Origin: Bacteroidota bacterium
GTDB lineage: Bacteria; Bacteroidota; Rhodothermia; Rhodothermales; JANQRZ01
Length of the DNA: 62,446 bases
Assembly: GCA_038746285.1 (NCBI GenBank)
Contig: JBCDKT010000021.1
Span: 1-62,446, forward strand
Direction: 5' to 3'
Shown here: positions 6,324 to 7,825 of the stretch, piece by piece
Numbering within the stretch: the stretch's first letter is position 1
Layout: every line of letters begins with the position of its first letter
Notes under the pieces: model-generated
What the model was told of the DNA's origin: nothing
The model's database searches: none
The model's input: the letters and a program-made list of their open reading frames with translations, nothing else
Translations under genes and position numbers: made by a program

Positions 6324-6463
6324 GGAGTGGGGAGAATGGATGGAAGAGCGGAAGGGGTCAGGCGCGGAAGAAAGGAAGAGGGCGTTGGCGCAGAGCACAA
6401 CGGCCTCGCTACCTTTCTCAGCTTTCCTGCGCTCTTCCGCTCTTCCGCTCTTCCGCTCTTCCG
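6324..6463 (+). repeat. Promoter-array element G (8-bp units, self-complementary arms)
   Basis: A purine-rich arm contains GGAAGAGCGGAAG (6342-6354). The core carries TTGGCGCAG and the box TACCTTTC (6410-6417). The other arm is four copies of CTCTTCCG (6432-6463). The 13-base segment of the first arm is exactly complementary to 6434-6446, so the element can fold. Both flanking genes are on the minus strand, so the box faces no start codon. Confidence 0.7.
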
Positions 6464-6473
6464 CTCCTGAAGC

Positions 6474-7634
6474 TCACCCCGCCACTGCCTCGATGGCCGC
6501 GCGCAGCGGGTCGAGGCGGAGGCGACCCTCGTAACGCTCGCCGTTGACGAACAGGGCCGGCGTGCCGTCGACGCCGCTGCGGACACCGCTCTTGAAGTCG
6601 GCCCGGACGCGGTCGGCGAAGGCGTCGGTGTCGAGGTGCTCGCGGAAGGCGTCGAGGTCGAGGCCGAGGCCGGCGGCGAGGGCGTCGATGCGGTCGTCGC
6701 TGAGGGCGTCCTGGTGGGCGATCAGGGCGTCGTGCATGGCCCAGAACTGGCCCTGTGCCCCGGCGGCTTCGGCGGCTTCGGCCGCGCGCTGCGCGTGTGC
6801 GTGGACGCGGACGAGCGGGTAGTGCCGGTAGGCGGCGAGGAGGTCGTCCCGCTCGTCGAGCAAGGTGTCGAGGAAGCCGTGGACGCGGGCGCAGTAGGGG
6901 CACTCGAAGTCGCCGTACATCAGGACCGTCACGGCCGCGTCGTCCGGGCCGCGCCGGTGGTCGCGGTCGCTGACGGGGAGCGCGAGGCGGCGGCGCTCCT
7001 GAACCGGCACGCCCTGCCCGTCCGAGGGGCGGCTGACGACGAGCGCGCCGTCGCCGGTCTCGGCGCGCTCGGCCCCGCGGCCGAGGAGGCCCGCGAGGCC
7101 GTCGGCCCCGGCGTAGCGGCGGAGCATCCACACCTCGGGGATGACCTCGGCGACGATCTCGCCCCGGTCGAACATCCGCACGACTGCGCTCTCGGAAGCC
7201 ACGACGGCGACGGCCCCGGTGCGGAGCGTGATCGAAGCCCCGGCCATGTGGCGGCTCCCGAGGCCCATCGGGATGTCGACGCCGTCGGAGGAGGCGTCGA
7301 TGTAGCGGGCGGCCGAGACGGCGACCCCGTCGTCGGTCACGACGAACCCGCCGTCGAGCTGGGCGAGCTCTTTGACCGTCTCGCGGAAGGCGGGGTCGGC
7401 GACGCGGCGGGCCTCGTCGGGGTGGCCGAGGAGCGGGTCGAGGACGAGCGGTCGGCTGTGGGCGAGCACGGCCTCGGTATCCCCGACCACGAAGAGGGTC
7501 CCGATCTTGCGCCCCTCGCGTCCCTCGCGGGCGATCTCGACGGCGAGCGAGAGGACGGCTTCGAGCGTGTCCTGGTTGACGCCGCTCCGGCCGGAGCAGA
7601 CGTCGCGGAGGGCGTCGGGGTTGGGCGTCTGCAT
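6474..7634 (-). CDS. Diadenylate cyclase (DisA_N) fused to a DsbA-like thioredoxin domain
   Basis: Residues about 20-170 are a diadenylate cyclase (DAC) domain, which makes the second messenger c-di-AMP from two ATP: GRKIGTLFVVGD, LDPLLGHP, LDGGFVV (DGG at 94-96) and PMGLGSRHMAGASIT (RHM at 128-130). The common motifs are DGA and RHR, so two positions deviate. Residues about 230-386 are a DsbA/Thioredoxin_4 domain: YGDFECPYC (redox pair C245, C248), DALIAHQDALSDD, and the cis-proline loop GTPALFVNG. There is no signal peptide or membrane segment, so both halves should be cytosolic. A linker of about 60 residues joins them without any gap in reading. I know of no characterised enzyme with this arrangement. 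ATG at 7634; a TAACTTCT box lies about 35 bases upstream. Confidence 0.85.
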   Translation of the reverse strand: MQTPNPDALRDVCSGRSGVNQDTLEAVLSLAVEIAREGREGRKIGTLFVVGDTEAVLAHSRPLVLDPLLGHPDEARRVADPAFRETVKELAQLDGGFVVTDDGVAVSAARYIDASSDGVDIPMGLGSRHMAGASITLRTGAVAVVASESAVVRMFDRGEIVAEVIPEVWMLRRYAGADGLAGLLGRGAERAETGDGALVVSRPSDGQGVPVQERRRLALPVSDRDHRRGPDDAAVTVLMYGDFECPYCARVHGFLDTLLDERDDLLAAYRHYPLVRVHAHAQRAAEAAEAAGAQGQFWAMHDALIAHQDALSDDRIDALAAGLGLDLDAFREHLDTDAFADRVRADFKSGVRSGVDGTPALFVNGERYEGRLRLDPLRAAIEAVAG

Positions 7635-7673: not shown

Positions 7674-7825
7674 GATAACCCAAGTTGCGTGGTACAACTC
7701 CGAGAGGGCTACCACCCCGGACCGCAGACGGCAGACCGCCGGTTCCGGCACCCACGGCGGTCTGCCGTCCGTCGTCTGCGGTCCACCGGCACGGCGAGCG
7801 AATAGGGCACAACTTGGGTTAGATA
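7671..7825. mobile_element. MITE-like hairpin element with 7-bp direct repeats
   Basis: TTAGATA occurs at 7671-7677 and 7819-7825 as a direct repeat. Just inside are inverted ends ACCCAAGTTG (7678-7687) and CAACTTGGG (7810-7818). In the middle, a 22-base arm (7719-7740) pairs with 7756-7784 apart from a 7-base bulge. The arms contain GACGGCAGAC and GTCTGCCGTC, similar to the repeats around the four-helix-bundle gene at 21.6 kb. It has no coding capacity. Confidence 0.6.

Follow-up and report, generated by a model that had tools for sequence, protein, structure and literature searches.

Cyclic di-AMP (c-di-AMP) is a messenger that controls K+ and osmolyte balance, and to our knowledge few direct inputs to its synthesis are known. 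The window, the whole stretch of DNA analysed (62,446 nucleotides from a Bacteroidota bacterium), carries a gene that appeared to join a diadenylate cyclase (DAC) domain to a DsbA-like redox domain. This raises the question of whether the fusion is genuine, whether both of its active sites look functional, and whether it could connect c-di-AMP synthesis to the thiol redox state of the cell. The open-access papers searched contained no account of a DAC-thioredoxin fusion.

A DAC domain and a DsbA-like domain in one reading frame

Pfam analysis of the predicted protein identified a DAC domain (PF02457, residues 35-159, E = 1.2e-14; 54.3 bits against a curated cut-off of 27) followed by a Thioredoxin_4 domain (PF13462, residues 224-383, E = 3.2e-19) that also matched DSBA (PF01323, residues 236-381, E = 2.6e-17). 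The DAC part begins at about residue 20. Using NCBIfam, the DAC half matched positions 121-269 of the archaeal DacZ family NF041371 (E = 4e-40) with a score of 137.8 bits, far under the DacZ cut-off of 430, and only the catalytic half of the family was matched. The original prediction of a cyclase and a CPYC-bearing Thioredoxin_4 domain in one frame without a signal peptide was borne out: DAC (DisA_N) and Thioredoxin_4 both matched in the one protein, inspection revealed no hydrophobic N-terminal segment, signal peptide or membrane segment, and the CPYC motif at C245/C248 and the DGG and RHM motifs were present as described. What it had missed were a cysteine at position 13, SES in place of SEE, the existence of RHM-bearing relatives and a fusion of the same domains in reverse order. 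The protein was not classed as a periplasmic DsbA oxidase because it has no export signal and its DsbA domain follows a domain that uses cytosolic ATP. We lean, together with the redox control set out below, towards a gene product that would be a diadenylate cyclase, soluble and cytosolic, carrying its own thiol-exchange module. The features of the gene are collected in Table 1.

Table 1. Features of the fusion gene, in window positions
Feature	Residues	Position	Strand	Basis
DAC-DsbA fusion gene, 386 aa		6474..7634	-	open frame, ATG, whole-length orthologues, purifying selection
Cys13, sole Cys of the DAC half	13	7596..7598	-	invariant in 22/22 compact DACs
DAC domain, DacZ type, without PK_C-like N-terminal domain	35-159	7158..7532	-	Pfam, NCBIfam
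DGG in place of DGA; ribose-contacting Asp kept	94-96	7347..7355	-	alignment
GSRHM, counterpart of GxRHR; phosphate-contacting Arg and His kept	126-130	7245..7259	-	alignment
SES, counterpart of SEE; metal-binding Glu replaced by Ser	147-149	7188..7196	-	alignment
Linker, variable and predicted disordered	174-219	6978..7115	-	pLDDT, identity
Thioredoxin_4/DsbA-like domain	224-383	6486..6965	-	Pfam, PDB relatives, pLDDT
CPYC redox motif	245-248	6891..6902	-	first Cys near-invariant in relatives
cis-Pro of thioredoxin fold (GTPALF)	359	6558..6560	-	position conserved in relatives

The complete fusion was present in all three genomes examined from the family, which represent two genera (100, 86 and 81% identity). 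Nei-Gojobori analysis of the three orthologues gave dN/dS values of 0.06-0.21 for the DAC part and 0.14-0.28 for the DsbA part. Purifying selection thus acts on both halves, and the DAC half is the more conserved of the two.

Relatives of the cyclase half

We next consider where this type of cyclase occurs. A DAC match was found in 193 of the 195 genomes of the window's class; strong matches to NF041371 in the same 195 genomes were confined to the three family members, and the others were weak. The fusion resembles DacZ/CdaZ (NF041371) in the type of its DAC domain and is 39% identical to a Haladaptatus DacZ. In contrast to DacZ/CdaZ, it carries a redox domain at its C-terminus, together with RHM, DGG and Cys13, and lacks the PK_C-like N-terminal half. 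That N-terminal domain defines DacZ, so the fusion was not classed as DacZ. The longer DacZ architecture was seen in two genomes of the phylum of a Gemmatimonadaceae genome and in one of the myxobacterial phylum.

The nearest relatives were compact DACs of about 196 aa from Actinomycetota. In this phylum, surveyed as that of a Micromonosporaceae genome, 21 of the 286 genomes gave a DAC match. Twenty loci were read, of which 19 were compact and one was a long DacZ form. These 19 DACs share 60-67% identity, RHM, Cys13 and length with the DAC of the fusion. They differ from it in that most have no redox domain and DGA is kept, and two are joined to a DsbA-like domain in the opposite order. We found no family name for this compact, RHM-bearing clade. 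A myxobacterial-phylum genome encodes a single-domain DAC of 198 aa (L144; 57% identity, DGA, RHI), and an IMG/VR contig carries a partial compact DAC (L141; 58% identity, DGG, RHI). The latter contig has phage-terminase-like genes, with its DAC running into an HsdR-like fragment that is in a different frame, and is possibly chimeric. Relatives of the DAC half were not found in a Chloroflexota sample (201 genomes), in the phylum of genome G424 (349 genomes sampled) or in 56 other genomes of the class of genome G977. The phylum of the Gemmatimonadaceae genome yielded only distant DacZ forms that have the N-terminal half, phage records gave only chance-level matches, and no compact DAC was found on any plasmid record searched.

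The CdaA, DisA and DACNG-DAC classes have the PF02457 catalytic domain in common with the fusion and differ in its partners, which are membrane helices, DNA-binding domains or DACNG/DACNH sensors. The fusion would work like a DAC with a sensory partner. The window's genome also encodes a strong DAC match (L001) that reads as CdaA by its hydrophobic N-terminal region; the fusion is therefore not necessarily the chief source of c-di-AMP. The class survey recorded two DAC matches each in the window's genome and in both family relatives. A third DAC protein of the window's genome, of about 591 aa with the Pfam architecture DACNG-DACNH-DAC, lies on contig C44 (9733-10071, + strand).

The same domains are joined in reverse order in Actinomycetota

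Two actinobacterial genomes (L160/L152 and L161/L153) encode proteins of 373 and 369 aa with the order DsbA-DAC. Both keep CPYC and the equivalent of Cys13, and Pfam confirmed both domains in one of them; both genomes also encode a stand-alone compact DAC (L162, L163). The DAC tree places the two fusion groups in separate supported clades within an unresolved comb. In the DsbA tree the fusion types fall apart, and a common group is not the best tree and is not rejected (AU p = 0.276). Mainly because the domain order is opposite, two fusion events are the simplest reading, and the domain pair was probably fused twice.

An invariant cysteine in the cyclase and an intact-looking redox site

Alignment of the compact DACs revealed Cys13 in 22 of the 23 sequences with a readable N-terminus, the exception being the myxobacterial L144. 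In these 22 the DAC part has no other cysteine, and no other residue among the first 23 positions is invariant, the rest of this stretch being variable; Cys13 lies just ahead of the first long DAC helix. A lone cysteine makes an intradomain disulfide impossible, so Cys13 is likely to be S-thiolated or to enter an intermolecular disulfide or a mixed disulfide with CPYC. Cys13 is also found in compact DACs without a fused redox domain and, as it is absent from L144 as well, it may have another role.

The redox half has the profile match, the CXXC motif (CPYC) and the cis-Pro loop (GTP) of the DsbA/Thioredoxin_4 family, and its PDB relatives are 3gyk, BdbD and DsbA. CPYC is a glutaredoxin motif as well, and the fusion protein gave a weak GrxA match in NCBIfam. 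Stand-alone relatives of about 175 aa occur in bacteria and haloarchaea, as do relatives joined to NhaA, a Na+/H+ antiporter, or to formate/nitrite transporters (FNT). The best of these cytosolic relatives are 37-54% identical over the domain. They differ from the fusion in having a transporter partner or none, and their CPYC is frequently CPYS, CPWT or CPHS; the second cysteine is often Ser or Thr. The many monothiol relatives fit a role in the reduction of mixed disulfides. The redox site looks intact, and thiol-disulfide exchange is predicted. Among side observations, formate/nitrite transporters from two same-class genomes (L007, L010) carry a C-terminal DsbA-like domain in which CXXC is replaced by CVTS/CETS and the cis-Pro is missing (DTNNLF), which looks like a redox-dead copy, and a haloarchaeal plasmid (L132) has a DsbA-FNT gene with DoxX and VOC neighbours.

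The fusion of this domain type to transporters as unrelated as NhaA and FNT, and the occurrence of monothiol and even Cys-less variants, would also suit a redox domain that is a protective or tethering module, keeping the enzyme reduced, folded or repaired without any signalling. We regard this explanation as doubtful: the same compact DAC has been fused in two orders in distant groups and has a dedicated invariant cysteine, both of which suggest a specific partnership.

The cyclase pocket departs from textbook motifs and looks intact

The full DGA, RHR and SEE motifs of diadenylate cyclases are not found in the fusion, which has DGG, RHM and SES. To weigh these changes we compared them with the ATP contacts of Listeria CdaA, which are made by the Leu of GALI, the Asp of DGA, Thr-Arg-His of GxRHR, and the Ser and Glu of SEE; the last R of GxRHR is not among them (PMC7288161). 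The aligned counterparts in the fusion are GTLF, D94-G-G, S127-R128-H129 and S147-E148-S149, and the ATP-contacting side chains compared are all kept (Asp94, Arg128, His129 and Ser147).

All 22 compact DACs with Cys13, among them every one of the 19 actinobacterial sequences read, have M as the third letter of RHR; this letter is I in L144 and L141, and DacZ types show H, V, A or R. In place of the metal-binding Glu of SEE, the compact and DacZ-type proteins in the comparison carry Ser, Thr or Asp, and Ser is the residue in most of the DacZ types. Haloferax DacZ is an active archaeal enzyme that uses Mn only (PMC6741144). RHM being the norm of its clade, and an active enzyme being known among the DacZ types, neither RHM nor SES is an argument for a dead enzyme. 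RHM as a mark of decay was rejected. The original prediction had warned that the altered motifs might affect activity. Among the sequences compared, DGG is limited to the fusion lineage and the L141 metagenome contig; it is a genuine but conservative change. For RHM the warning is weakened, the motif being invariant in 22 compact DACs and its last position a non-contact one. In a second structure run, with the DAC domain alone and three alignment rows, the resulting model was of low confidence (mean pLDDT 56); all 50 of the Foldseek matches listed for it were DAC structures. The nucleotide pocket, as far as the alignment tells, is intact-looking.

A DAC half that has degenerated into an adenine-nucleotide sensor, binding ATP or c-di-AMP and controlling the redox domain, would account for the departure of all three motifs from the textbook, and the CdaA of the same genome could then supply c-di-AMP. 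This is unlikely: RHM and SES are common to stand-alone compact DACs or DacZ types that have no redox partner, and conservation is higher in the DAC half of the fusion than in its redox half.

A proposed thiol switch for c-di-AMP synthesis

The joining of the two domains in reverse order in a distant group, together with the invariant cysteine, makes the pair probably a redox switch for c-di-AMP. We judge it rather more probable than improbable, from comparison of sequences, that the fusion is a cytosolic c-di-AMP synthase under reversible thiol control at Cys13, with CPYC as the domain that handles this control. Two DAC domains would come together face to face and convert two ATP into c-di-AMP, and the metal used may be Mn instead of Mg. 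Cys13 would be a redox-sensitive thiol, S-thiolated or held in an intermolecular disulfide, and the tethered CPYC domain would make or, more likely, resolve this modification in the manner of a glutaredoxin. Oxidative or electrophile stress would alter c-di-AMP output and, in turn, K+ and osmolyte transport. For stand-alone compact DACs, a separate redoxin would take the part of the CPYC domain. The link between c-di-AMP and thiol redox state that the original prediction proposed has gained from the orthologues, the reverse fusion, the invariant cysteine and the gene context of relatives, and stays a prediction. That redox-domain relatives are fused to ion or acid transporters (NhaA, FNT) also speaks for the proposed switch. 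Points against it are the Gly of DGG, the loss of the metal-binding Glu, the neighbouring genes in the window and the presence of CdaA.

More tentatively, and short of what we would call probable, there may be a class of redox-gated diadenylate cyclases in at least two phyla, in which Cys13 would be the switch, a DsbA-like domain fused on either side or acting in trans would read and reset it, and c-di-AMP would report thiol or electrophile stress. A cyclase with an attached thiol-exchange domain, in two orders and with a single invariant cysteine, offers a concrete proposed route from redox stress to c-di-AMP, and draws attention to the compact clade.

The two halves are probably made as one protein

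The linker is the variable part of the protein, with 55-71% identity among orthologues compared with 89-95% in the DAC part. In the AlphaFold model, pLDDT is below 50 at residues 174-213 of the linker and mostly above 90 in the DsbA half; the DAC half is weakly modelled. A variable and disordered linker could permit the domains to exist as separate proteins, whether through an internal start or through cleavage of the linker, in which case the fusion would serve mere co-expression. The window gene does have a GTG at codon 209, the sole start-like codon of its linker. Across the three orthologues, however, this codon is GTG, GTC and GTT; both family relatives have a GTG two codons further on that the window gene lacks, and the linker of the reverse fusion L160 has no start codon. 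An internal start yielding two proteins is not conserved among the orthologues and was rejected. Separate translation of the two halves is unlikely on this comparison, and we give this explanation as a whole very little weight.

A chimeric assembly or frameshift artefact, for which one could point to at least one of the three family genomes being metagenome-assembled, has negligible probability and is excluded by whole-length orthologues with identical domain order in three assemblies from two genera, by neighbours conserved on the carotenoid-gene side in both relatives and at glyS in one, and by dN/dS values well below 1. For the other family relative, the stretch retrieved did not contain glyS. 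Two findings that the original prediction had named as speaking against it, a frameshift between the domains and homologues always encoded as two separate genes, were not borne out, the intact fusion being kept in 3/3 family genomes.

Gene context of the fusion and of its compact relatives

The window neighbours of the fusion gene are glyS and a carotenoid gene, neither of them a redox or K+ gene. Stand-alone actinobacterial compact DACs have the layout PNPOx, VOC, MhqD-related hydrolase, DAC, DUF924 and MFS efflux pump. Among the 17 loci with such a DAC we counted, on the DAC strand, VOC at 8, the hydrolase at 6, PNPOx at 7, DUF924 at 11 and MFS at 10. The hydrolase matches MhqD at E = 2e-48, under the equivalog cut-off. 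Genes of the MhqD/MhqO type are part of the responses to quinone and thiol-specific stress (PMC6798810) and have also been linked to aromatic degradation (PMC12673573). Given this second association, the context of the compact DACs is suggestive only in pointing to thiol/quinone stress. At its 3' end the compact DAC gene is abutted or overlapped by the DUF924 gene (L166, L170, L172 and others; 11/17 loci), and DUF924 is unmentioned in the open-access literature searched.

In the window itself, no Rfam family was found in the first 20 kb, and neither a sigma-70-like promoter nor a terminator was seen near the fusion gene. Directly downstream of the fusion gene towards glyS, short repeats resembling GCTCTTCC stand in tandem at positions 6434-6466. 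In the interval that separates the fusion gene from the carotenoid gene (7676-7821), a perfect 12-nt inverted repeat (TAACCCAAGTTG / CAACTTGGGTTA) flanks a 28-nt imperfect palindrome; the arrangement resembles a small element of mobile or REP type, or a pair of divergent control sites.
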